Part shown: one piece after another, positions 25,727 through 63,990 of the stretch
Layout of the letters: every line of letters starts with the position of its first letter
Numbering within the stretch: position 1 is the stretch's first letter
Program-made: the position numbers and the translations under genes
Notes under the pieces: model-generated
What the model saw: only the letters and a program-made list of their open reading frames with translations
What the model was told of the DNA's origin: nothing
Databases searched by the model: none
Source of the DNA: Lachnospiraceae bacterium AC2028
GTDB taxonomy: Bacteria > Bacillota > Clostridia > Lachnospirales > Lachnospiraceae
Reading direction: 5' to 3'
DNA: 64,000 nucleotides
NCBI GenBank assembly: GCA_000702685.1
Contig: JNJD01000007.1
Location: 248,001 to 312,000 of the forward strand

Positions 25727-26710
25727 TCATTCGTATTCAACTGTTGCGGGAGGCTTCGGTGTGTAATCGAAGAGTACTCTGTTGATTCCGGGAACCTCGG
25801 AGATGATCCTCTTTACAAGATGATCGATCAGTTCGTCGGAGAGATGCTCTACGGTAACCTCCATAACATCGGTGGTATTGATCGCACGGATGATGCAGGG
25901 CCAGTCGAAGGTCCTCTTTCCGTCCTTTACACCGGTGGACTTGAAATCGGGAACAACGGTGAAGTACTGCCATACCTTGCCCTCGAGGCCGTTCTTGGCA
26001 AACTCCTCACGAAGGATCGCATCGGATTCGCGTACTGCTTCAAGTCTGTCTCTTGTGATCGCACCGGGGCAGCGGACACCGAGTCCGGGGCCGGGGAACG
26101 GCTGACGGTAAACCATGCCTGCGGGAAGTCCGAGGCGCTCACCTACGATACGTACTTCATCCTTGAAAAGGATCTTAACGGGCTCTACAAGCTCGAACTT
26201 CATATCCTCGGGAAGACCGCCGGCATTATGATGAGCCTTGATGCCTGCTTCACTCTCCAGAATATCGGGCCAGATGGTTCCCTGTGCGAGGAATTCGATT
26301 CCGTCAAGCTTTCTTGCTTCCTCAGCAAATACCTCGATGAACTCACCGCCTATTATCTTACGCTTGGTCTCGGGATCGGATACGCCTGCAAGCTTATCCA
26401 GAAATCTGTCGGTAGCATCCACATAGATCAGGTTTGCTTTCATCTGATTACGGAATACCTCGATAACCTGCTCGGGTTCACCCTTGCGGAGCAATCCGTG
26501 ATTAACGTGAACACAGACAAGATTGTCACCGATAGCCTTGATGAGCATTGCAGCCACTACGGATGAATCAACTCCTCCGGAAAGTGCGAGCAATACTTTC
26601 TTGTCTCCGATCTGCTCCCTGAGTGCCTGAAGCTGCTCCTCAATGAAAGCATCGGCAAGCTCGGGTGTGGTGATCCTTACCATGTCGTCCGGTCTTCTGT
26701 CGTATACCAT
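25727..26710 (-). CDS. GMP synthase, ATP-pyrophosphatase subunit only
   Basis: 327 aa. It contains the PP-loop [10 protein letters not shown] (about 44-53) and the C-terminal dimerisation domain with [11 protein letters not shown] (about 213-223) and the closing KPPATVEYE. It has no glutaminase domain, and no separate amidotransferase subunit is encoded nearby. It would adenylate XMP and use ammonia or a glutaminase made elsewhere. A full-length GuaA lies 2 kb upstream on the same strand; the two differ clearly in sequence and in an insertion. GGAGAA precedes the ATG. Two-subunit GMP synthases are known in archaea and some bacteria. Confidence 0.88.
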   Translation of the reverse strand: MVYDRRPDDMVRITTPELADAFIEEQLQALREQIGDKKVLLALSGGVDSSVVAAMLIKAIGDNLVCVHVNHGLLRKGEPEQVIEVFRNQMKANLIYVDATDRFLDKLAGVSDPETKRKIIGGEFIEVFAEEARKLDGIEFLAQGTIWPDILESEAGIKAHHNAGGLPEDMKFELVEPVKILFKDEVRIVGERLGLPAGMVYRQPFPGPGLGVRCPGAITRDRLEAVRESDAILREEFAKNGLEGKVWQYFTVVPDFKSTGVKDGKRTFDWPCIIRAINTTDVMEVTVEHLSDELIDHLVKRIISEVPGINRVLFDYTPKPPATVEYE

Positions 26711-28730: not shown

Positions 28731-30362
28731 TCACTCCAGCTCCACGGTCCCGGGAGGCTTCGATGTGAGATCGTAGAGTACACGGTTTACTCCTCTTACC
28801 TCATTGATGATACGGTTCATAACCTTCATCAGGATATCGTAAGGGATCTGTGCCGATTCTGCGGTCATGAAATCAACGGTCTTGACTGCGCGGAGTGCAA
28901 CGGCAAAATCATAAGTTCTCTCATCACCCATAACGCCTACACTGCGCATATTGGTAAGTGCCGCGAAATACTGGTCGGGCATCCATGAAGGCCAGTAGCT
29001 TCTTAGGAGTGCATGATTGGGATTTGCCCTGTCTATCCTGACGCCTGCTGCCTCCGCCGCTTCATAAGCATACTCGTTGGCCGCGGCTTCAACCTCTTCA
29101 CGGTAGATCGCATCGGAATCCTGAACCATCTTAACCTTCTCCGCGGAAACATCTCCGATGATACGGATACCGAGTCCGGGTCCGGGGAAGGGCTGTCTGA
29201 AGACGAGCTGATCGGGAATCCCGAGTTCAAGTCCGACCTTACGAACTTCGTCCTTGAACAGATTTCTGAGGGGCTCGATTATCTCCTTGAAATCAACATG
29301 CTCGGGAAGACCGCCCACATTGTGATGTGATTTGATGACTGCGGATTCACCGCCGAGACCGGATTCTACAACATCGGGATAAATGGTTCCCTGTACAAGG
29401 AAGTCTACGCGTCCGATCTTCCTGGCTTCTTCCTCGAATACTCTTATGAATTCTTCGCCGATGATCTTGCGCTTTCTTTCAGGCTCTGCGATTCCCGCAA
29501 GTTTAACGTAATATCTCTCGGCCGCATTTACCCTTATGAAGTTAAGATCGTAAGGACCTTCGGGTCCGAATACTGCCTCGACCTGGTCTCCCTCGTCTTT
29601 CCTCAAGAGACCGTGATCTACGAATACGCATGTGAGCTGCTTTCCGACCGCCTTGGAAAGAAGTACCGCGGCAACGGAAGAATCAACTCCGCCGGAAAGA
29701 GCACAGAGAACTTTTCCGTTTCCTACCTTTTCCCTGATGAGCTTTATCTGTTCCTGAACAAAGGAATCCATCTTCCAGTCGCCCGCGCATCCGCAGACGT
29801 TGTAGAGGAAATTACCGAGCATCTTCGTTCCCTCGGGAGTGTGAAGAACTTCGGGATGATACTGGAAACCGTATAATTTCTTTTCATCATTTGCGATCGC
29901 TGCATAAGGACAATTGTCGGTCACTGCTATCGACTTAAATCCCGGAGCTATCTTCGAGATATAATCGTTATGGCTCATCCAGCAGGTTGTGTTTTCCTTT
30001 ACACCCTCGAATACGGGTGAGGAAGTGTCCACCTTAAGAGCAGTGTGACCGTATTCCCTTACGGGTGCCTTCTCGACATTTCCACCGAGCACGAAGCTCA
30101 TAAGCTGTGCTCCGTAGCAGAGACCCAGAACGGGAACTCCCATTTCGAAGAGCTGCTTATCGCACGATGCGGCTCCCTCTTCATAGACGCTTGCAGGTCC
30201 TCCGGTTAAAATAATCCCCTTGGGATTCATTGCCCTGATCTGATCGATCGGTGTCCTGTAAGAATAGATCTCACAATAGACATTGTTTTCCCTTACTCTT
30301 CTTGCGACCAGCTGATTGTACTGTCCGCCGAAATCTATTACGAGCACCAGTTCCTTGTCCAT
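28731..30362 (-). CDS. guaA: GMP synthase, glutamine-hydrolysing (full length)
   Basis: 543 aa. The N-terminal class I glutaminase (about 1-195) has the nucleophile Cys in GLCYGAQLM and the His/Glu pair in YHPEVLHT. The ATP-PPase carries [10 protein letters not shown] (about 221-230), and the dimerisation domain ends KPPGTVELE. It converts XMP to GMP. A ~35-residue insertion rich in Ala/Glu (about 415-450) is absent from the short paralogue. AAAGGA precedes the ATG. No purine riboswitch motif is seen upstream. Confidence 0.95.
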
Positions 30363-50014: not shown

Positions 50015-50042
50015 AAAAGCGGAAACATTAGTTTCCGCTTTT
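50015..50042. terminator. Terminator shared by the diguanylate cyclase and DMT genes
   Basis: Stem AAAAGCGGAAAC/GTTTCCGCTTTT (50015-50042), loop ATTA, with T runs on both sides. It covers the stop codon of the DMT transporter gene at 50028. Confidence 0.85.
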
Positions 50043-50975
50043 GCTTTTTTCTTTTGAGGGAAATGCCTGGACTATCATGATCGCAAGGAACATCAGCACG
50101 CTTCCTATGATCTCCCTTACCGACAGATTCTGATGAAGTATCACATAACCGCCGAGCACACAGAAAAGCGCTTCACAGCTCATCAGGATCGAAGCTGTGG
50201 CAGGCTCGAGCCTAGACTGGCATATTATCTGGATCGTATATCCTATGCCACCGGAAAAAACACCGGCATATATTATAGGCACGGTCGCGGCGAGGATCGA
50301 AGGAATATCGGGATCTTCCACAGCAAACATCACAATACCCGAAGTGACGGATACGGTCAGGAATTCTATGCAGGCGAGCTTGATATTGTCGTATTTTGCG
50401 GACCCCGCATCGATCACCAGTATCTGGACCGTGAACATCACCGCGCAGGCCATCAGAAAGACATCTCCCTTTGCGAAGGTCAGTGATTCGTTGATGGTCA
50501 GGAAATACAGACCGAGAACCGAGATCACGACTCCGGCCCACACCACCGGTCTTATCTTCTTTTTCATGAAGATGCCGCAGACAGGAACCAGGATGATATA
50601 CATCGCGGTAATGAATCCGGCTTTTCCGACCGAATCCGTATAGAGGATTCCCACCTGCTGCAGATTTCCGGCAAGCGAGAGCAGTATTCCTATGATGATG
50701 CCGGTTTTCCAGAGTCCCGCCGAACGCCAGGAATGATCTTTCGTATTTACCGGGCCGGGGTTCTCTCCCGATTTTTTGAGCGCTCTTTTGCGCCCGATAT
50801 CCGTGAATACGGAGAAAAAGAAAACAACAACCGTGGCAAGCATGAATCTGACACAGTTAAAAGTAAAGGGCCCGGTATTTTCCATTCCGATACTCTGGAA
50901 TGCAAACCCCAGTCCCCAGATAAGTGCGCCGATAAGCTGGAGCACTATAAAAAATGTACGATTTCCCGTTTTCAT
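50028..50975 (-). CDS. EamA/DMT-superfamily transporter
   Basis: 315 aa from the ATG at 50975 (a GTG at 50996 has a nearer AAGGA but would overlap the preceding gene). Ten hydrophobic helices in two EamA repeats; the start FFIVLQLIGALIWGLGFAFQ is typical. It probably exports amino acids or other metabolites; substrate unknown. It is the last gene of the packed run from 63990 and ends at a terminator. Confidence 0.85.
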   Translation of the reverse strand: MKTGNRTFFIVLQLIGALIWGLGFAFQSIGMENTGPFTFNCVRFMLATVVVFFFSVFTDIGRKRALKKSGENPGPVNTKDHSWRSAGLWKTGIIIGILLSLAGNLQQVGILYTDSVGKAGFITAMYIILVPVCGIFMKKKIRPVVWAGVVISVLGLYFLTINESLTFAKGDVFLMACAVMFTVQILVIDAGSAKYDNIKLACIEFLTVSVTSGIVMFAVEDPDIPSILAATVPIIYAGVFSGGIGYTIQIICQSRLEPATASILMSCEALFCVLGGYVILHQNLSVREIIGSVLMFLAIMIVQAFPSKEKSKSGN

Positions 50976-50979
50976 AACT

Positions 50980-52362
50980 TCAGATGCGCACAGCACCGCG
51001 CATATATTCCTTTATCTCATTATCCGAAGGTATCTTAAGTATGTCGGATACATACTTTTCGGCGTCGGCCACGGACCACAGCGACAGGGTTCTCCTGACT
51101 TCCGGAACGGACCTGGGATTGACACTGAATCTTCTGCATCCCATCCCCGCGAGTATGGGTATAAGGGAAGGATCCGATGCAGCCTCACCGCAGACGGAAA
51201 CCGGAATTCCCGCGCCGTGAGCATTATCTATCGTGGTCTTTATAAGCCTGAGTACGGCCGGCTGTGTCAATGACTGAAGGTAGGCAACATTTCTGTTTCC
51301 CCTGTCGGCACTCATGGTGTACTGGACAAGATCATTGGTCCCGATGGAAAAGAAATCGCTCTCCAGGGCCAGCATATCGGATATTATCGCGGCGGACGGA
51401 GTCTCGATCATCGCACCGACCTTTATGTTGTCATCGTACTCATATCCTTCATCCCTGAGATCGCTCTTGAGTTCGTATATAAGGGCTTTCACTTCCCTCA
51501 TCTCATCCACGCATGTGATCATGGGGATCATTATCGAAATATTGCCGGAAGCGCTTGCTCTTAAAAGCGCCCTGAGCTGGGTTGCGAAAAATTCTCTGTT
51601 TCCGAGGCTGTATCTTACCGCACGGTATCCGAGGAACGGATTGCTTTCAAGCTCCATATCGATATAGGGAAGGCCCTTGTCTCCGCCGATATCAAGCGTA
51701 CGTATCACAACCTCGTGTCCGTCCATAGCCTGGGCGATTCGCGAGTAAGCCCTGACCTGTTCCTCTTCGCCCGGTGCCCTGCCGAACTCCGCAAACAGGT
51801 TCTCGGTCCTGTAAAGTCCGATGCCCTCTCCGCCGTTATCGATCGAATGCATGACATCGACTATATCATTCACATTGCAGAAAACCTGGGCGCTTTCGGA
51901 ATCGGCCATCACGGTCTTCATCGAGCAGAATCTTTCAAGTTCTTTTCTCGATTCAAGATATCTTTCCTTTCGCGATGCGAATTCCCCGATCAGTCCGGCT
52001 TCGGGTCTTTCATACACAAATCCGTTTATGCCGTCAACGATGACCGTATCGCCGTCCTTGATGACACTTGTCGCATTCGGAACTCCGTAGACCGCGGGCA
52101 GGCCGATGCTCCTTGCCACCAGTGCGGAATGAGAGGTCATTCCTCCGGTCTCGCAGACAAATCCCGATACGCCGCAGTCCGTAAGCTTAGCGACCATATA
52201 AGGAGTCAGGTGATTAGCCACAAGAACGGTCCCGGGCTTTAAGTGAGCGGCAAAAAACTCGTCAACCGAGCCTGTGGAAACATTCTCGGACAATTCGGCG
52301 AGCCCAAGTATCTTGGCGACACCAATCCCTATTCCCTTGGAAGTTTCTGAACCGGTAAGCAT
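50980..52362 (-). CDS. Enzyme I-like PEP phosphotransferase lacking the HPr-binding domain
   Basis: 460 aa, against ~570 for PTS Enzyme I. The phosphohistidine motif GGMTSHSALVARS is intact with His78 (His185 in the other copy here). The PEP-binding barrel is complete: GLYRTENLF, RTLDIGGDKG, GAMIETPSAA, TNDLVQYTMSADRGN and the catalytic Cys in CGEAASDP. Between SKGIGIGVAKIL and the His domain about 107 residues are missing, just where the helical HPr-binding subdomain sits. The frame is intact and the gene has its own start 20 nt after the HAD gene, so this is a real short protein. Its phosphate acceptor is unknown. Confidence 0.88.
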   Translation of the reverse strand: MLTGSETSKGIGIGVAKILGLAELSENVSTGSVDEFFAAHLKPGTVLVANHLTPYMVAKLTDCGVSGFVCETGGMTSHSALVARSIGLPAVYGVPNATSVIKDGDTVIVDGINGFVYERPEAGLIGEFASRKERYLESRKELERFCSMKTVMADSESAQVFCNVNDIVDVMHSIDNGGEGIGLYRTENLFAEFGRAPGEEEQVRAYSRIAQAMDGHEVVIRTLDIGGDKGLPYIDMELESNPFLGYRAVRYSLGNREFFATQLRALLRASASGNISIMIPMITCVDEMREVKALIYELKSDLRDEGYEYDDNIKVGAMIETPSAAIISDMLALESDFFSIGTNDLVQYTMSADRGNRNVAYLQSLTQPAVLRLIKTTIDNAHGAGIPVSVCGEAASDPSLIPILAGMGCRRFSVNPRSVPEVRRTLSLWSVADAEKYVSDILKIPSDNEIKEYMRGAVRI

Positions 52363-52382: not shown

Positions 52383-53165
52383 CTAGATAAGTTTGAAATG
52401 TTTGAACGCTTTATATATCCCGTCCTCGTAGATCGAATCGGTAACATAGTCCGAAGCCAGGAGCAGTTCGGGATTTCCCTGTCCCATGGCTATTCCGTGC
52501 GCGGCGGCTTTGATCATCTCCATATCGTTCATTCCGTCGCCGAAGGCATAAATGTTTTCGGCGGGAACTCCGTAATACTTTCTTACGATCTCCATGCCGG
52601 TAGCTTTGGAATGCCCCTTGGGTATGAATTCCACCACGATATTACCGTGAACGATCATATCGAGAAATCCGCCGAGCTTTTCGCACACTGCGTCATAATC
52701 CGTATCCGCGGTTATATCGGCACTGAACTTATTGACAGGATCGTCATCGGTGAGCGTATCAAGTCTTCTGGCTCTTTCACCGAGCGATTCCCACAAGGTG
52801 GTCGCATAGGGATCATCGGGGAAATCTTCCGGATCCAGGAAACAGTATTCTCTTCCTTCGAGGACCACCGGCATATGCTCTTTTTCCAGAACCTGCAGTG
52901 ATGTTTTTATCTGTTCGGGAGTAAGGAGCCTTTCATACTCCACTTTCCCTTCGATCTCGACATGACATCCGCATGCCGCAACGACTCCGTTCATTCCGAG
53001 TTCATCAAGTGCGGCATATCTCGTATTGGATCTCGAACGCCCCGTGTTGATGAACACCTTATTGCCCATGACACGGGCAAGCTTTATCGCATCCTTCGTG
53101 CTCTCCGGGATGCGGAGTATCTCATCCCAGATGGTCATGTCAATATCAAGAAATATCAGATTCAT
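52383..53165 (-). CDS. HAD-family phosphatase (Cof type)
   Basis: 260 aa from the ATG at 53165 (GGAGAG upstream). HAD motif I is FLDIDMTIWDE (both Asp present), motif III Lys in GHSKATGMEIV, and motif IV GDGMNDMEM. Cof-type (class IIB) HADs dephosphorylate sugar phosphates and similar small compounds. It overlaps the end of the membrane-protein gene upstream by 20 nt and is followed by the short Enzyme I gene. Confidence 0.9.
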   Translation of the reverse strand: MNLIFLDIDMTIWDEILRIPESTKDAIKLARVMGNKVFINTGRSRSNTRYAALDELGMNGVVAACGCHVEIEGKVEYERLLTPEQIKTSLQVLEKEHMPVVLEGREYCFLDPEDFPDDPYATTLWESLGERARRLDTLTDDDPVNKFSADITADTDYDAVCEKLGGFLDMIVHGNIVVEFIPKGHSKATGMEIVRKYYGVPAENIYAFGDGMNDMEMIKAAAHGIAMGQGNPELLLASDYVTDSIYEDGIYKAFKHFKLI

Positions 53166-55005
53166 TATACTCTCCTGCACTGAGGATTCCTTCGTATCCC
53201 ATAAGGAACGGGATCGTGAACATTATGGGAAATGAATATCTTGCATGAAGCATAAAGCAGGGTCCGGCCATGCATACCAGAAGCGTTATCAGCTGCATCG
53301 GATACAGATGAAGATTTTCCTTCCGTCTCCTTATGAGTATTATCATTATCCAGGTCCAGAGTCCGGGACTCTGCAGACATCCGAATACCGACAGCCTGTC
53401 GATGTACCTGTAGAAATATATCAGCAGCTCGTCCGCACCTTCGAACAGTCCGGTTCTCGTAAAATAGTCGCTGTCCAGTTCGTACCTGATGGATGTATCC
53501 GTCTCGGGATCGAACCATCCGTATGTGCTCATGAAAAACGATTCGAAATAAGTACCTGGATGCTTGAAGAACATTTTAAACCAGGTTCCGAGATAACCCG
53601 ACACGACTTCCGACGGAGCCTCCGTATCATAATACTGCTTGACCGGATCCGAAATGAACGGATCGTACATTTCGATCATCTTATGATAATCTCCGAAGAG
53701 CGCGTTGATCGAAGAGATCTCCTCCGGTGTCAGCTCCTCTTCATATCTGATCATGTAAAGAGTCGTCTGCTGCATAGGTACGGAAAGCATTTCCTTGAGT
53801 CCGTCACTCTCCGCACGGGTATAAGCTTTGATGCCGGATGACATCGCCGTATAAATGCCAAGCGGAAGTATCAGAAATACTAAGGACTTTTTAACAAGGA
53901 GTCTTGCATCCGTTTTTTCACCGGACGCTTTGCTCATTCCGTATACGCACATCACAAGTCCGTTTACAAAAATGATGATCGATCCGTTATTCCTGCAGAT
54001 GCATACCAGAACGGATGCGATGACCAGCTTTATGAGATATTCTCTCTTTTTTATAAATGCGGCAATGTCCTCATAATATTCCACGGTAAGGATGCAATAC
54101 CATATGCAGGCTGCGGCAAAGGGAACATCCTTGATGGCGGTTGTCGCGATATTGGAGTAGATCGGAGAAAGGACATATACCGCAAGAACCGTTATGAGCA
54201 CGGGGATGCGTGCACCTTTTTTCTTCAGGTATGAAAGAGTCAGTGAAAGAGCGGCGGCAAGTGCAAGAGCCTGAAGTATTATCCATACAAACAGCGCAAG
54301 GTCGTAACCTCCGCTCACCGCTTTGAACGCTCCGAAAAAGATTCCGATGAATGCGGTAAGCACTATCGGATGATGTCCGGACCAGGGCATATCTCCGGTC
54401 GTCTGCATAAGCTGGCCTATGAAATCCGCGTTATGGTTTCCCGGATAATTGATGATCATTACCGGAAGCCAGAGCAGCATAAGAAGGATCGTGACATTCC
54501 GGACCAAATGTTCTCCGAATAATCTATCAAATACCTTCGGATGGCCGGTGCAGGCGGATACCTTCTCAAGACCGCCTTCAAAGAGTGCGAACAGATATCT
54601 GAATATAACTCCGAATCCGATTGCCGCGATAAAGGATCTGATGATAAAGGGAACCGTTCCGAACACTCCCGACAGGTCGCCGAGCGTCTGTACGGATCTT
54701 CCGAGGATCACGATAAAGCCGAGCACAAGCGGAAGAACATGTCCCCTAAAGTTTTTCGAAAATCTGTCCCCTATCAGCTTCATGGCGCAGCCGCAGAGGA
54801 TCGCAGCTACGATCATATCGAACTGGTAATCACCGAGAGTCGAATAGATCCTCGCTATCAGAAAGTCCTGGCTCACTTTTCCGTATGCCCAGAAAGGGAT
54901 CGCTTCAGTTGTCCTGTAAGTGATCGCAAATCCTGCTAACAGAGCGGACAGCACAAATCCGGCCGGGCTTTTTTTATTCTTTTTGCTCAAGGGAGTTTTT
55001 TCCAT
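53146..55005 (-). CDS. Large polytopic membrane protein, DUF6020/GT-C-like
   Basis: 619 aa, about twelve hydrophobic segments with a long extracytoplasmic loop near the C-terminal third (about 420-510). The NYPGNHNADFIGQL segment (about 190-203) and SGHHPIVLTAFIG (about 213-225) resemble the first outer loop of GT-C type glycosyltransferases and the DUF6020 family. It may transfer a sugar from a polyprenyl carrier to surface glycans; the substrate is unknown. It starts 7 nt after the next upstream gene. Two further GT-C-like proteins precede it. Confidence 0.75.
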   Translation of the reverse strand: MEKTPLSKKNKKSPAGFVLSALLAGFAITYRTTEAIPFWAYGKVSQDFLIARIYSTLGDYQFDMIVAAILCGCAMKLIGDRFSKNFRGHVLPLVLGFIVILGRSVQTLGDLSGVFGTVPFIIRSFIAAIGFGVIFRYLFALFEGGLEKVSACTGHPKVFDRLFGEHLVRNVTILLMLLWLPVMIINYPGNHNADFIGQLMQTTGDMPWSGHHPIVLTAFIGIFFGAFKAVSGGYDLALFVWIILQALALAAALSLTLSYLKKKGARIPVLITVLAVYVLSPIYSNIATTAIKDVPFAAACIWYCILTVEYYEDIAAFIKKREYLIKLVIASVLVCICRNNGSIIIFVNGLVMCVYGMSKASGEKTDARLLVKKSLVFLILPLGIYTAMSSGIKAYTRAESDGLKEMLSVPMQQTTLYMIRYEEELTPEEISSINALFGDYHKMIEMYDPFISDPVKQYYDTEAPSEVVSGYLGTWFKMFFKHPGTYFESFFMSTYGWFDPETDTSIRYELDSDYFTRTGLFEGADELLIYFYRYIDRLSVFGCLQSPGLWTWIMIILIRRRKENLHLYPMQLITLLVCMAGPCFMLHARYSFPIMFTIPFLMGYEGILSAGEYNESDIS

Positions 55006-55012
55006 TACAGCA

Positions 55013-56191
55013 TCATCCCCACATCATATATGAAACGCCGCGCACTATTCTTTCGAAGAAAAGAATACCGCAATACGTATGATATAAAAGTACGATCCCG
55101 CTCACAGTAAGATATATCCGTGAAAGAAGACCGAACGTCTTGAACTTTTTCACATCTTCCATCCAGAGGATGAGCGATATCCCGAAGATCAGGATTATCG
55201 TAAATGCATAACCCCAGCTGAAGTTGGCATCCATGTCCCTTGCTCCTTCTTCGCTGAAAAGGAAATACTGCATGAAACCCACTCCGGCACTCATCCACGC
55301 AAAGAGCATATATCTGTTCTTAAACAGATCCTTTATGTGAAAGAAAAGTATAAGGAGCGGAAATGCTATCGAAAGAAAACTTACGGCAACAATGTTCGAA
55401 GCATGCACACCCATTGCTCTTCCCGGAGCTATGATGATCTGATTATTTCCCGCATTTACATCATATAGCGCCTTGTTCTGAAGGATCATTATCAGAAATG
55501 ACGGTATGACGGATGAAGCAAAAAGAAACAGCCTGCCGGCGGGAGCATTCTTTTTCACAAGATCGATGATAAGAAAGACAAGCATCACGGGAGCGACGGC
55601 AAGGAAGAAATTGGGCTTTGCCGCAGTCGTAAGTGTCAGCACGGCCGTAAAAAGAATGAACGACTTCAGAGTCAGTTTCTTCGATATGTCTTTTTCGATC
55701 TTCAGGTATATGAGCAGAGTCCAGAGTCCCATCCACTTCATCATCAGATAAGTGGAATTGTGCCAGATGGAAGCCGTATGCATTCCCATGTAGCGCCCGC
55801 TGGAAAGTCCCCTGATATAACAGGGCATGAAGACGTTGAGAAATAATGCCATTATCCCGGCGACGCAGGGGTCGATCTTTTTATCAGTCACCTCCGTTAT
55901 AAGTTTGGAAGTGAACAGAACCGAGAGGCATGCGAACGCGCCCAGTATCACAGGGAGCAGCTGCATCAGATGGATCTTATCAAGTGCGATGAGTATGAAC
56001 GAGATAAGCGAGTAGATCAGCCCGTCGTCTACGGCAAGCTTTATATGCGCCGGAAGATCGGATTCATATACGGAACCCTCCGTCCATCCCATGAACCTGT
56101 AGTACATATAGATGCACGCACCGGTGTAGAGCGTGATAAGTATCGCGGATATTATCCTTGCTGCGGAAGGACGCTTTCCGGTATCAGACAT
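55013..56191 (-). CDS. Polytopic membrane protein, GT-C-like (paralogue 1)
   Basis: 392 aa from the ATG at 56191 (GGGAGG upstream); a longer frame overlaps the upstream gene and is discounted. About ten membrane helices. An acidic outer loop YESDLPAHIKLA follows helix 1, as in GT-C enzymes where a loop Asp is catalytic. HNSTYLMMKWMGL and NFSWGYAF have counterparts in the neighbouring gene, so the two are paralogues. It overlaps that gene by 8 nt. Probable lipid-linked glycosyltransferase; unproven. Confidence 0.75.
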   Translation of the reverse strand: MSDTGKRPSAARIISAILITLYTGACIYMYYRFMGWTEGSVYESDLPAHIKLAVDDGLIYSLISFILIALDKIHLMQLLPVILGAFACLSVLFTSKLITEVTDKKIDPCVAGIMALFLNVFMPCYIRGLSSGRYMGMHTASIWHNSTYLMMKWMGLWTLLIYLKIEKDISKKLTLKSFILFTAVLTLTTAAKPNFFLAVAPVMLVFLIIDLVKKNAPAGRLFLFASSVIPSFLIMILQNKALYDVNAGNNQIIIAPGRAMGVHASNIVAVSFLSIAFPLLILFFHIKDLFKNRYMLFAWMSAGVGFMQYFLFSEEGARDMDANFSWGYAFTIILIFGISLILWMEDVKKFKTFGLLSRIYLTVSGIVLLYHTYCGILFFERIVRGVSYMMWG

Positions 56192-57410
56192 AGAAATATC
56201 CTCCCATATACAGCATCGCAAAGAATGCCAGGCCGCATCCCAGATGCCAGACATAAACCGCCCACTCGAACACCAGAACAGGGACGGGCTGTTTTTTCTT
56301 TATCGTATTTTCTATAAGAAGCATCATTCCGGAGACAAACACAAAGAACATTCCGTAGATATATCCCCAGGCGAAATTGTTGTGTATGAATCTGTCGCCC
56401 TTTTCGTAGAGACACAGGAATTCAAGAAATCCCGCCATCATCACTTCCCATGAAAGAAGGAATATCTTGTTATCCTTGAATCTTTTCAGATTGAAGAGCA
56501 TGACAACTCCCGGAAATGCATTGGCAAGCATGACCGCAAGAACTATGTTGCCCGTATATACGCTCCAGGCTTTTCCTATACCGAAACCGACTCCTCCGTC
56601 CGCACCCGCATGGGAGGAAGCACCGAACACTCCGCCGAACTGTATGATCAGCGTTATGAACGTGGGAACGGCGGTGGCAAGAAGATACAGAAACTCTTTG
56701 TACTTCTTACCCTTTGATATGATCAGTCTTACGATCATATGCACTGCGGCGGCGGAAACAAGCACGAATGTAAAGCTCGGCTTGGTAAGTGTTGCGAGAA
56801 GAAGAAAAACGGAAAAGGCTATATACTCCTTCTTATCCGCATGATCCTCATAATATGTGAGAATGTGCGCAAAAAGGAAAAACGCGACTATGGCGAATCC
56901 CCTTGCCGCAAGATATGTCTGGTTATAATACGGATTCGGACTGAACACTCCGAGATTTCTGAGCCTCATCCCGGGAAGATAGATTCCCTCCGGGGGATAG
57001 AGCATCGATACGAAAAACAGTGAATATGAGATCAGCAGGATAAAGCCTTCGAACGCGGTGCGGTTCTTATCCTTTTCGGGGACAAGAGGCGCAAGGTACT
57101 TAAGCATAAAATACGAAAGCACAGCCGGAGACAGCGAATTGAGAACTGTCGCCGAAAGCGCAGCTCCCATATGCACATTCGAAAACAGGGCGAAGAATCT
57201 CCCCAGCATGAAATAGACCGGATAAGGAAAATCAAATCCGCTGTCTATCCCCTGCATCTCAAGAATATATGCATCCACATCCGATCCGTAATGTTCGTAT
57301 TCCAAATGGAATGCCTGATTTCGAAACAGCACGAAAAGAAGGCATGTATATGCCGCGAGCAGCAGGAAATATGCTATTTTGGCTTTCTTTGATATCTTAA
57401 GCTTCATCAT
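56184..57410 (-). CDS. Polytopic membrane protein, GT-C-like (paralogue 2)
   Basis: 408 aa, about ten membrane helices. After helix 1 comes EHYGSDVDAYILEMQG, an acidic loop matching that of the paralogue. YYNQTYLAARGFAIV and NFAWGYIYGMFF are shared landmarks. The start overlaps the copA stop by 4 nt (ATGA); two Met codons stand together and either could be used. Coupled to copA by position only; no copper link is evident. Same probable GT-C class as its neighbour. Confidence 0.75.
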   Translation of the reverse strand: MMKLKISKKAKIAYFLLLAAYTCLLFVLFRNQAFHLEYEHYGSDVDAYILEMQGIDSGFDFPYPVYFMLGRFFALFSNVHMGAALSATVLNSLSPAVLSYFMLKYLAPLVPEKDKNRTAFEGFILLISYSLFFVSMLYPPEGIYLPGMRLRNLGVFSPNPYYNQTYLAARGFAIVAFFLFAHILTYYEDHADKKEYIAFSVFLLLATLTKPSFTFVLVSAAAVHMIVRLIISKGKKYKEFLYLLATAVPTFITLIIQFGGVFGASSHAGADGGVGFGIGKAWSVYTGNIVLAVMLANAFPGVVMLFNLKRFKDNKIFLLSWEVMMAGFLEFLCLYEKGDRFIHNNFAWGYIYGMFFVFVSGMMLLIENTIKKKQPVPVLVFEWAVYVWHLGCGLAFFAMLYMGGYFYV

Positions 57411-57616
57411 TCGATACCGGTAACTTTATAATCCCTGTCTTCCACGGCCTTTTTAAGGACATCATCCGCAAGTTCGGATGAAAGGGTTACAACAGCGGTT
57501 CCCTTCTCGTGGGAAACCTCTGCGGACGAAACACCGTCAAGAGCTTCCAGCGCCTTCTTTACAGACGCCTCGCAGTGTGTGCACATCATTCCTTCTATAT
57601 TGATTGTTTTGGTCAT
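57407..57616 (-). CDS. Nested CopZ-like copper chaperone from an internal start in copA (candidate)
   Basis: 69 aa in the copA frame. GGGAGG (57627-57622) lies five nt before an ATG at 57616, both inside copA. The product would be exactly one HMA domain with GMMCTHC, the size and motif of the CopZ chaperone. In E. coli a CopZ-like protein is made from copA by frameshifting, so making both from one gene has precedent. That initiation happens here is inference. Confidence 0.5.
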   Translation of the reverse strand: MTKTINIEGMMCTHCEASVKKALEALDGVSSAEVSHEKGTAVVTLSSELADDVLKKAVEDRDYKVTGIE

Positions 57617-59947
57617 TTCAGCCTCCCTAGGACTATCCGTCAACGATTTTTCCTCATTATCCAACAGTTTACGTTCCCTGTCAAAATCCCCCGGCGCTCT
57701 GTCGCGCGAAGAGTCATAGGGCTTAAAAAGATTCAGCCTCAGTGCGTTCATGCACACGGTAAAGCTCGAAAGGCTCATTGCCGCAGCGCCGAACATCGGA
57801 CTCATCTGCAGGCCTATCCCCGTGAACGCTCCCGCGGCAACCGGTATGAGTATCAGATTGTATATAAATGCCCAGAACAGGTTCTGGTGAATGACGGTAA
57901 GCGTCTTCCTTGAAAGCCTGAGTGCGGCGCACACATCGGAAAGGGATGATTTCATAAGCACGACATCTCCCGCATCGATCGCCACATCGGTTCCGGCTCC
58001 GATCGCCATCCCGGTATCCGCCGTTGTCAATGCCGGAGCATCGTTTATCCCGTCACCAACCATAAGTACTTTACCGTATTTATGAAGGCTTTTTATCACG
58101 GATTCTTTTCCGCTCGGAAGAACGCCGGATACTATCTCATCGACGCCTGCCTGATTACCTATCGCGCCGGCCGTAAGTTCATTGTCCCCGGTCAGCATCA
58201 CTGTCCTCAGACCTAAGGATTTAAGCTCGGAGATTGCCTTCACGGAATCTTCCTTGAGCACATCGCTTACAGCGATCAGGCCGAGCAGTTTGTCCTCCTT
58301 CGAAAAATAAAGAGGAGTCTTTCCCTCCGACGAAAGCTTTTCCGATATTTTTTTCATTTCATCCGAAAGGATGCATTTCCCGGAAATGAATCTTTCATTG
58401 CCGCCGTTTACCTCAGTCCCGCCTATCCGGGCCGAAAGTCCGTTGCCGGGATGAATATGCATATCGGCCGCTTCTTCGGATTCGAGATTTTTCTCCGAAG
58501 CATATGAGACCACCGCTTTAGCAAGAGGATGCTCACTCTTTGTCTCCAGCGAATAAGCGGTCCGCAAAAGCAGGTCTTCCGGTACTCCCGGGGCAGGTAT
58601 GACATCCGTCACCACAGGCTCACCCTTTGTGAGTGTTCCGGTCTTATCGAGTACCGCTATCCTGCTTCTTCCCGCCTCTTCCAAAGATGCGGAGGTTTTG
58701 AACAGGATCCCGTTTTTCGCCCCGACTCCGTTTCCGACCATTATCGCAACCGGAGTCGCAAGTCCCAGAGCACAGGGGCAGCTTACCACGAGGACCGTTA
58801 TGGCTCTTGTAAGTGCATAGGGTATCCCGGCACCGAGTATGATCCAGATGATAAACACGATCAGGGCAATTCCCATTACCGACGGAACAAATATTCCCGA
58901 CACCTTATCGGCAATGCGTGCGATCGGCGCCTTGGTGGATGAAGCATCCTTCACCATGCGGATAATCTCGGAAAGAGTGGTATCCTCTCCGACACGTTCC
59001 GCCCTGCATGTCATGAATCCGTTCAGATTGGTACACGCGGCCGACACTTTGTCTCCTGGCTGTTTATCTACAGGTATCGATTCCCCGGTAAGTGCGGATT
59101 CATTGACCGCGCTGCTTCCGCTTATCACGATCCCGTCGACGGGAATGTTTTCCCCGGGTTTTATGACATATGTGTCACCAACCTTTACTTCTTCGACGGG
59201 AACTTCGGTCTCATTGCCGTCCCGGATGACCGTCGCAGATTTCGGAGCAAGCTTCATAAGGCTCTTTAATGCATCGGTCGTACGTCCCTTGCTGTATGAT
59301 TCAAGAGTCTTTCCGACGGTTATCAGAGTAACGATCATGGCCGCCGATTCAAAATACAGCTCATTCATCATCAGCTGCATTGCATCCTGTGCACAGGTAT
59401 TAAATATTCTGACGACCGTCACGAGACTGTATATATATGAAACACCGGCACCCATTGCCACGAGAGTATCCATATTCGGAGCCTTGTGGATAACAGCCTT
59501 GGTGCCGCTTATGAAAAATTTCCTGTTGATGATCAGTATGATCCCCGAAAGGACCGCTTCGATCAGCACGACATGTGCGTGGGTTATCCCGGCGGGAACG
59601 GGCCGGTCAAACATCATCACACCCATGCTAAAATACATCAGGACGAGAAGCATGATGACGGATGATATGAGCCTTCTCAGCATCGCAGGCGTTTCGGTAT
59701 CCTTCAGTTCGTCTTCGGAGACTGAGGCACCGTTTCCGGCTCCCGAAACCTCAGCACCGTATCCTGCCTTTTCCACGGCGCGTATTATTTCTTCCGGTCC
59801 GGCGCTGCCTTCCACTTTCATGGAATTGGTAAGAAGCGATACTTCACATTTGGTAACACCTTCAACTCCCGATACGGCTTTTTCCACATGTGCCTGGCAG
59901 GCCGCGCAGCTCATTCCTGTTATCTTGTATCCTGTTACATCAGACAT
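57407..59947 (-). CDS. copA: Copper-exporting P1B-type ATPase with HMA domains at both ends
   Basis: 846 aa. The N-terminal HMA has GMSCAACQ (Cys14, Cys17). The core has the membrane metal site CPCALGLATP, the phosphorylation site DKTGTLTKG, the TGES actuator motif and GDGINDAPAL. A C-terminal HMA has GMMCTHCEAS (Cys789, Cys792), an unusual place for it. It exports Cu(I). A strong ribosome site lies inside the gene before Met778, so the C-terminal HMA may also be made on its own (see 57407-57616). It lies 5 nt after the MATE gene. Confidence 0.95.
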   Translation of the reverse strand: MSDVTGYKITGMSCAACQAHVEKAVSGVEGVTKCEVSLLTNSMKVEGSAGPEEIIRAVEKAGYGAEVSGAGNGASVSEDELKDTETPAMLRRLISSVIMLLVLMYFSMGVMMFDRPVPAGITHAHVVLIEAVLSGIILIINRKFFISGTKAVIHKAPNMDTLVAMGAGVSYIYSLVTVVRIFNTCAQDAMQLMMNELYFESAAMIVTLITVGKTLESYSKGRTTDALKSLMKLAPKSATVIRDGNETEVPVEEVKVGDTYVIKPGENIPVDGIVISGSSAVNESALTGESIPVDKQPGDKVSAACTNLNGFMTCRAERVGEDTTLSEIIRMVKDASSTKAPIARIADKVSGIFVPSVMGIALIVFIIWIILGAGIPYALTRAITVLVVSCPCALGLATPVAIMVGNGVGAKNGILFKTSASLEEAGRSRIAVLDKTGTLTKGEPVVTDVIPAPGVPEDLLLRTAYSLETKSEHPLAKAVVSYASEKNLESEEAADMHIHPGNGLSARIGGTEVNGGNERFISGKCILSDEMKKISEKLSSEGKTPLYFSKEDKLLGLIAVSDVLKEDSVKAISELKSLGLRTVMLTGDNELTAGAIGNQAGVDEIVSGVLPSGKESVIKSLHKYGKVLMVGDGINDAPALTTADTGMAIGAGTDVAIDAGDVVLMKSSLSDVCAALRLSRKTLTVIHQNLFWAFIYNLILIPVAAGAFTGIGLQMSPMFGAAAMSLSSFTVCMNALRLNLFKPYDSSRDRAPGDFDRERKLLDNEEKSLTDSPREAEMTKTINIEGMMCTHCEASVKKALEALDGVSSAEVSHEKGTAVVTLSSELADDVLKKAVEDRDYKVTGIE

Positions 59948-59952
59948 TCGAT

Positions 59953-61374
59953 CTATTCTCCGTGCGTCTTGATGAATTCCATATATTTATCATCCTGGGG
60001 AGTATGCATGTCCTCGGACGGGATCGTCTTCAAAAACTTTATCACAAAAGGAACCGAGATAAGTGCCGAGAGGATATCGGCGACCATCTGCGAACACTGT
60101 ATTCCCAAAAATCCCATGAACGGCGGAAGCAGCAGAAGCAGCGGTATGTAACAGAGTCCCGATCTTAACATCGAAAGAAATGATGCCTTCTTTGCATCGC
60201 CGATACTCTGGAACAGCATATTTCCGACTACCGAAGCAGGCTGGACAACAACGGCTATGCACATGAACCTTAGTGCGGGAACACCGTAATGAATTACAAG
60301 GTCGATCTGCTCGTCTTCAAGGAAAAGCCTTATGATATCCGCGGAAAAAATAAATCCGAGTATCGCCAGTCCCGTCATGAGAAGCGTGCCGGCCCTCCAG
60401 GTCACAAAGCACGCTCTTCTGAGCCTTTTAAATTTCTTCGATCCGTAATTGAATGCGGATACCGGCTGGAATCCCTGTCCTATTCCGATCATCGTGCTTC
60501 CTATGAACATCAGCACCCTTCCGTCTATGGTCATGGCAGCCATGGCGGCATCTCCGTACGGCTTGGATACTATATTGAGAAGTGATGTCGAGAGCGTTGC
60601 GCAGAGCTGTCTCAGAAGAGAAGGGAATCCGGTTTTTACTATTTCCGCTACGCTCGATGCGATCTCCCCGGCAGGAAGCTTCAGATACCTGAATCTTATC
60701 GAGCTGATGGCCTTGTGTGAAATGAACATATAAAGCAGTATACCGAGACTCACAAACTGGGATACCATTGTCGATATCGCCGCTCCCCTGATACCGAGTC
60801 CGAAGTTAAACATCAGTATGGGATCCAGGATCATGTTAAGGACTCCGCCCGAAACAAGACCGAACATGGCGAAAAACGCGCGCCCCTCATATCTCAGAAC
60901 ATTATTCAGGACGCAGCTCACCGAAAGTACCGGACCGGAGATGATGATGTAGATCGCGTATGTCTTGGCATAGGGGAATATCGTTTCCGTGCTCATCAGC
61001 CGTATCAGGGGATTGATGAACACAAGTCCCAGCAGCATAAGCATAAGACCCGAAATAAAAGAAGCCGCTATACCAAGAGTCAGTATGCGGTCGGCATCAT
61101 CTTTTTTTCCTACGGCCAGAAGACGGGCAACCTTCGAACCCGATCCCTGTCCGAACATAAAACCGAAAGCCTGGAAGACCGTCTGAAAGGTCATCACTAT
61201 GCCTATTGCGGCACTGGCACTCCTTCCGAGTTTTCCCACAAAGTATGCGTCGACCAGATTGTAGATCATCGTGATCAGCATACTCACCACCGTCGGCACC
61301 GCCAGCGTAAAGATCAGTCTCCCCGGCGGCGTAAGTATCATTTTTTTATATTGCTTGGCCTCTTCGTGATTCAC
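59953..61374 (-). CDS. MATE-family multidrug/Na+ antiporter
   Basis: 473 aa, twelve hydrophobic segments in two halves. A GTG start at 61374 follows AGGTAAAAGG. Typical features: GRLIFTLAVPTVVSMLI at helix 1, PGQGSGSKVARLLAVGK-like region after helix 2 and GIGQGFQPVSAFNYGSKK between halves. It exports cationic compounds by Na+ or H+ exchange. It lies 5 nt after the full-length Enzyme I and 5 nt before copA. Confidence 0.92.
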   Translation of the reverse strand: MNHEEAKQYKKMILTPPGRLIFTLAVPTVVSMLITMIYNLVDAYFVGKLGRSASAAIGIVMTFQTVFQAFGFMFGQGSGSKVARLLAVGKKDDADRILTLGIAASFISGLMLMLLGLVFINPLIRLMSTETIFPYAKTYAIYIIISGPVLSVSCVLNNVLRYEGRAFFAMFGLVSGGVLNMILDPILMFNFGLGIRGAAISTMVSQFVSLGILLYMFISHKAISSIRFRYLKLPAGEIASSVAEIVKTGFPSLLRQLCATLSTSLLNIVSKPYGDAAMAAMTIDGRVLMFIGSTMIGIGQGFQPVSAFNYGSKKFKRLRRACFVTWRAGTLLMTGLAILGFIFSADIIRLFLEDEQIDLVIHYGVPALRFMCIAVVVQPASVVGNMLFQSIGDAKKASFLSMLRSGLCYIPLLLLLPPFMGFLGIQCSQMVADILSALISVPFVIKFLKTIPSEDMHTPQDDKYMEFIKTHGE

Positions 61375-61379
61375 GCCTT

Positions 61380-63065
61380 TTACCTGATAAGCTTTTCTGT
61401 TTCTTCCTTGGTCTCGGCTTTAAGTATCAGCTGAGACAGTTCCTTACAGCTCCACACATTAAGCTTGCGGATCTGCTTCTTCATATCCGGTATCCTGTGA
61501 GGATCCACGCTGAACGATCTGACTCCCATTCCGATGAATACGGGAAGCATATCCGGATAGGCAGCAGCTTCTCCGCAGACCGTCACGGGTATTCCTGCGG
61601 CATTTGCACAGTCACATATCTTCTTCACGGCGCGTATGACCGCCGGCTGATATATGCTGCAAAGATCCGCCATCAGAGGATTGCCTCTGTCGGCACACAT
61701 TATGTACTGTGCAAGATCGTTGGTTCCGATCGAGAAAAAGTCAACATCGCCGGCAAGCTGATCCGCGCACAGAACCGCAGCGGGAGTTTCTATCATGCAT
61801 CCCAGCTTTATATCGCTTCTGTAAGGAATCTTTGCGGCACCGAGTTCGGACCTGCATTCTTCGATGATATGTCTTACTTTGAGCACCTCCCCTATGGAAG
61901 TTACCATGGGTATGAGAATGCTCACATTTCGTCCGTTTGATGCACGGAGTATGGCGCGGAGCTGGCTCTTAAACCGGTCGCAGTCGGCAAGACTGGCTCT
62001 CAGTCCTCTGACACCGAGTGCGGGATTATCCTCATGCGCCGGTCCGTCCGCAGACGAAACTGGATCCTTGTCACCGCCCGCATCCAGCGTTCTTATCACA
62101 ACGGGTTTTCCGTAAAAAGAATCCGCTATCCGGCTGTAGACTTCTGCCTGGTCTTCCTCCGCAGGTATGACGCTTCCGTTCATGAAAAGGAATTCGGTAC
62201 GTACAAGTCCGGCGCCGTCCGATGCGGATGCGATACCGGGAACCTTTTCAAATCCGATATTGCACATCACATCAATCGTGACACCGTCCATCGTCACGCT
62301 CGGAGCATACGGTTCCTTAACCGCTTTATTCTCATCACCCGCAAGTTCCAGGATCTTTTTATATGCATTCTTCTCGTCATCCGAGGGAGCGATGATCACG
62401 ATCCCCCTGTTTCCGTCCACGATGCATTCTGTGCCTGATGCGGCAAATTCATTACCGTAGCTTACGCCGAACACGGCGGTTATGCCCATAGAACGCAGTA
62501 TTACCGCAGCGTGGGATGTGGCGGTTCCGGTTTTCAGAACAACAGCCTTTATTCCGTCATCCTGAAGTCCTATGATCTCCGCCGCACTGAGTCTGTCCGC
62601 AAAAATGACATCTCCATCGGTTTTTGCTTCTTCGCGCGCTGCTTCGCCGGATTCTCCCATGCGGGCAAGTATCCCGCTTTTGACTTCGAGAAGATCCTCG
62701 CTTCTTTCCATGAAAAGCTCATCGCCGGAGGCTTTGAGCAGTTCTTCATATTTCCTGCACGCTTCTTCAAGAGCCTCTCCCGCCCTCTTGCCGGATTCGA
62801 TAAGTCCGGTGACTTCGTCGGAAAGCACCGGATCCCTGGCTATCATGATCTGTCCGGATATGATATCCTTTCCTTCCCTGCTGGATGCGGAAGATGCGAT
62901 CTTTTTCATATCCCCTTCAAAATCAAGAAGAGCGTCAAAAAAACGCATCCTCTCAAGATCCGCGTCGAAGGCTTCGGTTTCAACGATCGCCCCCGATGCT
63001 GCAGATCTTTCCATGATGCGTCCCATCACTATTCCTTTGTTAACGGGAAGGCCTTTATACTTCAT
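61380..63065 (-). CDS. ptsI: PTS Enzyme I (full length)
   Basis: 561 aa. N-terminal GLPVNKGIVMGR, the helical HPr-binding subdomain (about 25-145), the phosphohistidine motif GTATSHAAVILRS with His185, and the barrel with LVRTEFLFMN, RTLDAGGDKD, GCMIETPAAV, TNDLAQYIMCADRGN and Cys in CGEAAAYP. It passes phosphate from PEP to HPr. Its start overlaps the fruK end by 11 nt, so it is tied to fructose metabolism. No HPr or EII gene is in the window; they may lie upstream. Confidence 0.93.
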   Translation of the reverse strand: MKYKGLPVNKGIVMGRIMERSAASGAIVETEAFDADLERMRFFDALLDFEGDMKKIASSASSREGKDIISGQIMIARDPVLSDEVTGLIESGKRAGEALEEACRKYEELLKASGDELFMERSEDLLEVKSGILARMGESGEAAREEAKTDGDVIFADRLSAAEIIGLQDDGIKAVVLKTGTATSHAAVILRSMGITAVFGVSYGNEFAASGTECIVDGNRGIVIIAPSDDEKNAYKKILELAGDENKAVKEPYAPSVTMDGVTIDVMCNIGFEKVPGIASASDGAGLVRTEFLFMNGSVIPAEEDQAEVYSRIADSFYGKPVVIRTLDAGGDKDPVSSADGPAHEDNPALGVRGLRASLADCDRFKSQLRAILRASNGRNVSILIPMVTSIGEVLKVRHIIEECRSELGAAKIPYRSDIKLGCMIETPAAVLCADQLAGDVDFFSIGTNDLAQYIMCADRGNPLMADLCSIYQPAVIRAVKKICDCANAAGIPVTVCGEAAAYPDMLPVFIGMGVRSFSVDPHRIPDMKKQIRKLNVWSCKELSQLILKAETKEETEKLIR

Positions 63066-63990
63066 CGAATACTTTCATTATCTCCTTGTAATCGGGAAGC
63101 TTTCCTTCGAATACCGCTGCGCTTCCGGCCGCTACTCCGAGCTTGAGGGCATATCCGTAATCGCGCTCATCAAGATAGCCCTTGATGAAGCCCGCAGTCA
63201 TCGAATCTCCCGCGCCGAATGCTCCGAGTGGCTTTCCCGAGGGTGCCTTGCACTTATGGATCTCACCGTTCTTATCCAGAAGAAAGGCTCCGTCGGCTCC
63301 CATGGATACAATGACATTCTCGACTCCGGCTTCCCTAAGTTTTTCGGCTTCGGATATTATCTCATCCTCGCCCTTAAGCTCTCTTCCGGCAGCCTGGCAG
63401 AGTTCCTCGAGATTTGGTTTTACCAGGAAAGGCTTGTACTTGAGTGCTTTGGTAAGTCTGTCACCGGTCATGTCCACGACGGTCTTTACGTTTTCGGGAA
63501 CCGAGGAAAGGATCCTGTCGAGCATATCCCCGGGCGCCTGGGTCGGCATGCTTCCCGCAAGAACCAGAACATCACCCTCGGACAGTCTTTCGATCTGATC
63601 GCAGAGTTCATCCACGGATCCGCTCTCAACAACAGGGCCTGCGGCATTGAGCTCCGTCTCTTCAAATCCGCTCTCACCGGAGCCCTCATAGGGAACTCTT
63701 ATCTTTACATTTATCCTGCTCATTCCGTTTTTGTAGGGAAGCATTATAAATCCCGTACGGATGCCTATCGAGCGGACAGTTCCTTCTATCTCGTCTCCGG
63801 TCGTGCCGGCGATGAATCCCAGAGCCTTGGTCGGTACGTCAAGATTCTTCAGAACGACCGATACATTGATGCCTTTGCCTCCTGCGCGGAGCTCCTCTCT
63901 TTCCGACCTGTTCGTTCCGCCCTTTTTCAGATATGAAGCGGGATACATTACGTAATCGAGTGAAGGGTTGAGCGTTAAAGTGTAGACCAT
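63055..63990 (-). CDS. fruK: 1-phosphofructokinase (PfkB family)
   Basis: 311 aa. N-terminal TLTLNPSLDYVMY and GGKGINVSVVL, an LVLAGSMP motif (about 144-151) and the C-terminal GAFGAGDSMTAGF with the catalytic Asp. It phosphorylates fructose-1-phosphate to the 1,6-bisphosphate; tagatose-6-phosphate kinase is an alternative in the same subfamily. AGGAGA precedes the ATG, 10 nt from the window edge. It opens the packed run that continues into ptsI. Confidence 0.88.
   Translation of the reverse strand: MVYTLTLNPSLDYVMYPASYLKKGGTNRSEREELRAGGKGINVSVVLKNLDVPTKALGFIAGTTGDEIEGTVRSIGIRTGFIMLPYKNGMSRINVKIRVPYEGSGESGFEETELNAAGPVVESGSVDELCDQIERLSEGDVLVLAGSMPTQAPGDMLDRILSSVPENVKTVVDMTGDRLTKALKYKPFLVKPNLEELCQAAGRELKGEDEIISEAEKLREAGVENVIVSMGADGAFLLDKNGEIHKCKAPSGKPLGAFGAGDSMTAGFIKGYLDERDYGYALKLGVAAGSAAVFEGKLPDYKEIMKVFDEV

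Follow-up and report, generated by a model that had tools for sequence, protein, structure and literature searches.

Enzyme I (EI) is the entry point of a well-studied bacterial phosphate relay and is usually seen as coupled to HPr, which in EI-HPr complexes also contacts the swivel domain around the active His. Pieces of EI occur in other settings too, as in DhaM and other PTS multidomain proteins; DhaM retains the helical dock but has no PEP domain, the reverse of the protein described here, which gives a weak match to the DhaM model. EI has reportedly been complemented intragenically in vitro in one study, whose title assigns roles in dimerization to the C-terminal domain and to Arg126, a residue that we take to lie in the HPr dock. 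The swivel domain of rifampin phosphotransferase passes its phosphate to a partner other than HPr. The abstract of a study of that enzyme names its phosphate-carrying His swivel domain. This fold is similar in PPDK, PEP synthase, rifampin phosphotransferase, and our protein, and the first two also share its PEP-binding barrel, but our protein has no ATP-grasp domain (no Pfam family match).

An engineered E. coli protein, EI(1-21,146-575), has nearly the same cut as the natural one reported here, but its His189, named as an active-site residue of E. coli EI, has been replaced (PMC5537066). According to the same paper, this H189A construct binds PEP with a KD of 0.037, against 0.43 for its parent (unit uncertain), removal of the helical subdomain lets E. 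coli EI close on PEP without the hinge step, and E. coli EI autophosphorylates as a dimer (PMC5537066). In the portions of the open-licence PMC literature that could be searched, we found no account of a naturally occurring EI that lacks the part binding HPr.

Results and Discussion

A short Enzyme I without the HPr-binding subdomain

We analyzed a window of 64,000 nucleotides from Lachnospiraceae bacterium AC2028, in which an earlier reading of the sequence had predicted an EI paralog missing the subdomain that binds HPr. The open reading frame, its domains, and its family score all agree with an EI paralog and place it on the minus strand, which had not been given before. The gene, here called the short EI, is composed as follows.

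50980..52362, minus strand: short EI, 460 aa, ATG start (open reading frame list and translation, Pfam, NCBIfam, alignment, structure model)
Short EI, residues ~1-19: first strand, GIGIG kept (alignment, structure model)
Short EI, after the first strand: variable linker of ~20 residues replacing the helices (alignment)
Short EI, residues ~42-118: rest of the phosphohistidine swivel domain (Pfam, alignment, structure model)
Short EI, residues ~140-455: PEP-binding domain (Pfam, alignment, structure model)
52129..52131, minus strand: codon of His78, equivalent to E. coli His189, in the motif GGMTSHSAL (coordinate worked out by hand from the start of the reading frame)

In a Pfam search with E up to 10, the swivel/His family PEP-utilizers (PF00391, with the GG..SH motif) matched residues 42-114 and PEP-utilizers_C (PF02896) matched residues 140-426 with 350.7 bits, the latter with a predicted role in dimerization, while the HPr-binding domain PEP-utilisers_N (PF05524) had no match at that threshold. 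The protein scores 460.8 bits against a cut-off of 341.7 for TIGR01417 (PTS_I_fam), and the match begins at its residue 45, which corresponds to profile position 155. With the PtsI proteins of that family it has in common the swivel His domain, the PEP-binding domain, the GG..SHS motif, and nine active-site residues; the difference is the HPr-binding helical subdomain, which it lacks.

The extent of the loss was measured in an alignment of 44 rows. Thirteen of these are complete short EIs, 15 are copies of a divergent full-length EI described below (fullB), and 13 are further EIs from the genus; E. coli, Bacillus velezensis, and Monoglobus contribute one EI each. In the region bounded by E. 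coli columns 15 and 152, the short EIs have 23-26 residues, versus 131-154 in the 31 full-length EIs. Relative to the full-length EI of the window itself, 106 residues are gone (132 vs 26), close to the ~107 of the original prediction, and the missing segment is the same in all 13 copies. On sequence grounds the protein is thus an EI by descent and active site that fails one defining feature, the HPr dock, and the view that it is not a normal EI appears well founded given that the known HPr docking surface is missing.

Two other accounts of the gene were rejected: a frameshift or assembly artifact by the occurrence of 13 complete copies of the same build in separate assemblies, and a split PPDK or PEP synthase by family scores far under the cut-offs (132.3 of 843.45 bits for PPDK and 207.3 of 739.75 for PEP synthase). 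A separate gene supplying the helical subdomain was not found in this genome, where PF05524 matches only once, in the full-length EI.

A structure model of modest confidence (mean pLDDT 66.4, pTM 0.63, from a five-row alignment) is consistent with this domain build. Residues 1-137 match the EI N-terminal domain (5woy chain, 1-248) over 125 residues at 2.5 Å with ~110 residues skipped; with EI C-terminal domains, the model shares a match of 275 residues at 2.8 Å. Because the domains are placed differently in the model, whole-length matches to EI gave an rmsd of 20-25 Å, and domain-wise matches were used. The modeled swivel domain has a further match in the swivel domain of rifampin phosphotransferase (103-104 residues, 2.1-2.4 Å).

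Active site and selection

The nine residues H189, R296, R332, R358, E431, N454, D455, R465, and C502 (E. coli numbering), which apart from the His we take to be the EI active-site residues, are kept in 13/13 complete short EIs. This bears out the claim that the catalytic residues, including the His and the Cys, are intact. In seven pairs, dN/dS was 0.044-0.076 for the short EI and 0.056-0.161 for the full-length EI, with the short EI lower in each pair; these values are rough, as several dS exceed 1. Judged by these ratios, the short EI is a real gene under strong purifying selection. Only 3 positions separate the short EIs from 40 other EIs at the thresholds used.

Decay in relatives, which would have spoken against a working protein, was not found. 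A relic or neutral hitchhiker, left over from an EI duplicate after the loss of a domain and surviving by chance, would suit a gene found in one clade of one genus, where one genome of that clade (G023) is without it. We nevertheless consider this explanation very improbable, since dN/dS is low and below that of the full-length EI in every pair, and nine of nine residues are kept across copies at 58-88% identity.

The short EI is confined to one genus in the samples searched

Complete short EIs are present in 13 of the 31 genomes of the genus, namely that of the window and 12 others at 58-88% identity. A 14th, in G016, lies in pieces on contigs C106 and C265 and was left out of all alignments; the two fragments overlap in residues 46-236 with differing identity to the query, hinting at an assembly of mixed strains. 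Counting only genomes with completeness of at least 90% and contamination of at most 5%, the gene is found in 5/10. The 13 short EIs form one clade with support of 100/100 in two trees, on a long stem of 0.51 in one and 0.62 in the other (the latter with L116, which had no open reading frame through the motif filter, and three duplicate rows left out). Horizontal acquisition from another genus is possible. The nearest full-length EIs found share 49% identity with the short EI. Four named assemblies were found, all Lachnospiraceae, with rumen or omasum stated for three of them.

We searched more widely with a profile spanning the junction, on which short EIs score 180-205 bits, a held-out short clade 148-151, and full-length EIs at most 78. 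At E ≤ 1e-19, there was no short EI in 395 other genomes of the family (396 in total, from 334 genera); the 25 other matching genomes have frames of 568-613 whose matches lie solely beyond the junction. Among 147 genomes of the order (94 with a match, E ≤ 1e-75), no convincing short EI was seen, and all other frames were at least 537 long but one, a frame of 436 that begins at a contig edge according to its coordinates. Nor was there one in 398 genomes of the phylum (79 with a match, E ≤ 1e-103), where all other frames were at least 553. In a plasmid collection, 415 records match; among the matches listed, H1 and H2 are full-length EIs and the H6 match starts at query residue 15. The gene is therefore confined to one genus in the samples searched, which come from one phylum and were searched at strict cut-offs that distant short EIs would escape. 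Homologs of the same length thus exist inside the genus, as 13 complete copies, and outside it none was found in the family, order, and phylum samples.

Gene run and neighbors

The short EI is the penultimate gene of a co-directional run, which in order consists of a PfkB-family kinase, the full-length EI, a MATE-type transporter, a P-ATPase, two ~410-aa proteins, DUF6020, HAD, the short EI, and DMT.

63055..63990, minus strand: PfkB-family hexose kinase (TIGR03168), overlapping the full-length EI (family match)
61380..63065, minus strand: fullB, a divergent full-length EI of 561 aa with PEP-utilisers_N, swivel, and PEP-binding domains (family matches, alignment)
53146..61374, minus strand: genes between the two EIs, encoding a DUF6020 membrane protein (619 aa), two ~410-aa proteins, a copper-type P-ATPase, and a MATE-type transporter (family matches; P-ATPase and MATE named by eye from sequence)
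52383..53180, minus strand: HAD-IIB hydrolase (PF08282; HAD-SF-IIB), 20 nt upstream of the short EI (family matches; Cof-type model below its cut-off)
50028..50996, minus strand: EamA/DMT transporter, overlapping the end of the short EI (family match)
50015..50042, no strand assigned: 12-pair stem with runs of A and T, which overlaps the DMT stop and comes after a GGDEF-type gene of the other strand (pattern match on the plus strand)

The predicted full-length EI is thus in place, on the same strand and 9 kb upstream of the short EI. The genes between the two EIs are co-directional and either overlap or lie no more than 7 nt apart (20 nt in the whole run), and the two ~410-aa proteins had no family match. 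The run may be co-transcribed; promoter-like sites occur within it, at a lower number than in shuffles. The stem at 50015..50042 is a possible shared terminator for both strands. An Rfam search over positions 40000-64000 gave no match.

Elsewhere in the window, a second case of a domain-lacking copy beside a complete enzyme was observed: a GMP synthase paralog of 327 aa without the amidotransferase half (25727-26710, minus strand) lies 2 kb from a full-length GuaA of 543 aa (28731-30362, minus strand), to whose residues 199-543 it is 46% identical.

Apart from some insertions and losses, the genomes with fullB share this gene order; where a genome of the genus has another EI type, the neighbors differ, though a PfkB-family gene still precedes EI in several. 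The HAD phosphatase and DMT transporter named as neighbors of the short EI are present here on the same strand, but they are weak functional clues. DMT is absent beside the short EI in G029 and G027, and in 7/14 short-EI genomes a trio of Rpe, an IspD-type cytidylyltransferase, and a zinc dehydrogenase intervenes between HAD and the short EI. This trio, absent at that site in the lineage of the window, was found at loci L044, L045, L047, L049, L050, L051, L052, and L096, the last of which (G023) has it between HAD and a GGDEF-type gene. A tie between trio and short EI was dropped, as half of the short-EI genomes lack the trio there and G023 has it without the short EI. An assignment of the trio to CDP-ribitol synthesis was likewise rejected: only IspD and an Rpe model pass their cut-offs, and the ribitol-phosphate cytidylyltransferase and dehydrogenase models fail.

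These neighborhoods bear on the proposal that the short EI autophosphorylates from PEP and passes the phosphate to an acceptor other than HPr, which would dock on the bare swivel domain. Such transfer is in keeping with the fully conserved active site, the strong purifying selection, and the resemblance of the modeled bare swivel domain to that of rifampin phosphotransferase. No candidate acceptor emerged, however; DMT is not constant beside the short EI, and the trio fails on the counts just given. We regard this reading as possible and hold it tentatively. The original prediction had called a different acceptor likely; the loss of the dock and the intact active site on which it built both stand, but with no acceptor found, pairing with the full-length EI is an equally good reading of them.

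PTS inventory

The genome of the window contains three PEP-utilizers_C matches, namely both EIs and a frame of 897 aa, about the size of PPDK, and one PF05524 match, in the full-length EI. Among its three HPr-type proteins, the active-His motif (GLHLRPAG) is found only in the one of 88 aa. The other two (L105 7714-8010 and L038 1456-1686) are without the active His and keep the serine-site motif; one follows a WhiA-like gene, and the other, of 76 aa, lies beside a ThiI-like gene. Weak PF00381 matches with the span of the 76-aa kind occur in most genomes of the genus.

An HPr kinase is present, and the three EII families PF02378, PF00359, and PF03610 had no match in this genome. Among the 31 genomes of the genus, 8 have a PF02378 EIIC, one of which (G030) also has the short EI. 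Because of the HPr kinase, the single active-His HPr, and the absence of the three EII families, the PTS of this organism seems to serve regulation and not sugar import.

A regulatory gene content would suit a short EI that senses PEP or pyruvate, with PEP-dependent phosphorylation and dimerization altering what it binds and with no onward transfer; it might, for example, draw the full-length EI into mixed dimers. The tighter PEP binding of the comparable E. coli construct than of its parent, given in PMC5537066, points the same way. A pure binding sensor, on the other hand, need not keep the full phosphotransfer set that 13/13 copies retain, and no binding target is known. We judge this explanation rather unlikely.

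Constraint on the full-length EI

FullB is present in 14/14 short-EI genomes. In the copy of G027 (L050 840-2522), a single in-frame stop follows residue 145 and divides the HPr-binding part from the swivel domain. This stop could be an assembly error or a true split, and the G027 copy was left out of all fullB sets. All 15 fullB proteins, including those of G023 and G028, sit on one long stem, and the nine active-site residues are kept in 15/15. In G023 (93% complete), fullB, HAD, and the trio are present and the short EI site is empty; in G028 (83% complete), no short EI was seen, and the contig stops before the expected place.

We compared tree lengths of the helical and catalytic parts post hoc, using 15 bootstraps per group. 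The helical/catalytic ratio was 0.72 (bootstrap range 0.49-0.96) in the 13 fullB of short-EI genomes and 0.90 for all 15, versus 1.59 (1.38-2.16) in 21 other EIs of the family, from which the long branches o_L081, o_L082, and o_L092 had been dropped, and 1.36 (1.04-1.74) in 6 other EIs of the genus. Mean identities agree with a slower helical part in fullB. Pairwise ratios of dN, like the identities compared post hoc, show the same trend, except that helical/catalytic was >1 in 3/10 fullB pairs and <1 in 2/13 other pairs. On a fixed tree, the two fullB tips for which no short EI was found (G023 and G028) had a ratio of 1.24 versus 0.80 for the rest, a marginal contrast, also post hoc, that was lost in 1/40 and 9/200 bootstraps and that counts one inner branch joining G023, G029, and the outgroup in neither set. 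In G023, the catalytic branch (0.296) is no shorter than in the sister genome G029 (0.268), where the short EI is present. This pattern of constraint is what might be expected if the short EI took over part of the catalytic work, though the signal is marginal. Candidate marks of fullB were set aside: F354A and A359G, near the dimer loop, went unused, with A354 also occurring in another EI of the genus, and so did the G384 change, whose column may be an alignment shift.

The same data bear on whether the short EI might phosphorylate HPr alone, through weak docking on its swivel domain. The contacts of HPr near the active His in EI-HPr complexes give such docking a basis, but the docking helices are missing in 13/13 copies and the genome keeps an EI with a dock under strong constraint, so that we find the idea improbable.

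A possible division of labor between two EIs

The reading that we favor, at a probability of roughly one in three and with a non-HPr acceptor and a PEP sensor as close rivals, is a division of labor between the two EIs. The short EI would be a PEP-autophosphorylating protein that no longer docks HPr and cooperates with the full-length EI encoded in its run. PEP would bind to its C-terminal domain, and the swivel domain would swing in without first shifting a helical subdomain. His78 would then be phosphorylated, as the intact residues and the E. coli deletion construct suggest; by analogy with that construct, the short EI should autophosphorylate readily. As other EIs do, it would dimerize through its C-terminal domain, probably also with the full-length EI, and phosphate from the short subunit would reach an HPr docked on the helical subdomain of its partner, either directly or via the partner's His. 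EI work would in this way be naturally split, with one protein capturing PEP and the other docking HPr.

Several observations argue for a division of labor. Both EIs lie in one run, and all 14 short-EI genomes also have fullB; the genome has one active-His HPr, and only the full-length EI has a dock for it; and the helical part of fullB evolves more slowly than its catalytic part, unlike in other EIs. The HPr kinase and the lack of matches to the three EII families, the dimeric autophosphorylation of E. coli EI, and the reported intragenic complementation of EI in vitro also fit this reading. Other observations count against it. The co-occurrence of the two EIs comes from one clade, with no independent gains. 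FullB can live without the short EI, since G023 keeps it beside an empty site, and it may need no help, since its nine active-site residues are kept in 15/15.

The system may be described more specifically as a divided EI, made up of a PEP subunit and a dock subunit with a drifting catalytic part in a mixed dimer, or else as a PEP relay with a non-HPr acceptor. We put this description at somewhat below even odds, lower than the sum of both readings, because it demands more than either.

Implications

Some rumen bacteria thus carry, in addition to a full-length EI, a second EI that has kept its PEP parts and lost the HPr dock, and that probably has another mode of working. The existence of a conserved natural EI lacking just this dock suggests that evolution can separate the capture of PEP from the docking of HPr, and such an EI represents a natural counterpart of the deletion construct used to study EI mechanics. 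Should the short EI have an acceptor of its own, this would add a new PEP-driven branch; should it instead act together with the full-length EI, the passing of phosphate from one EI subunit to another would gain a physiological use.
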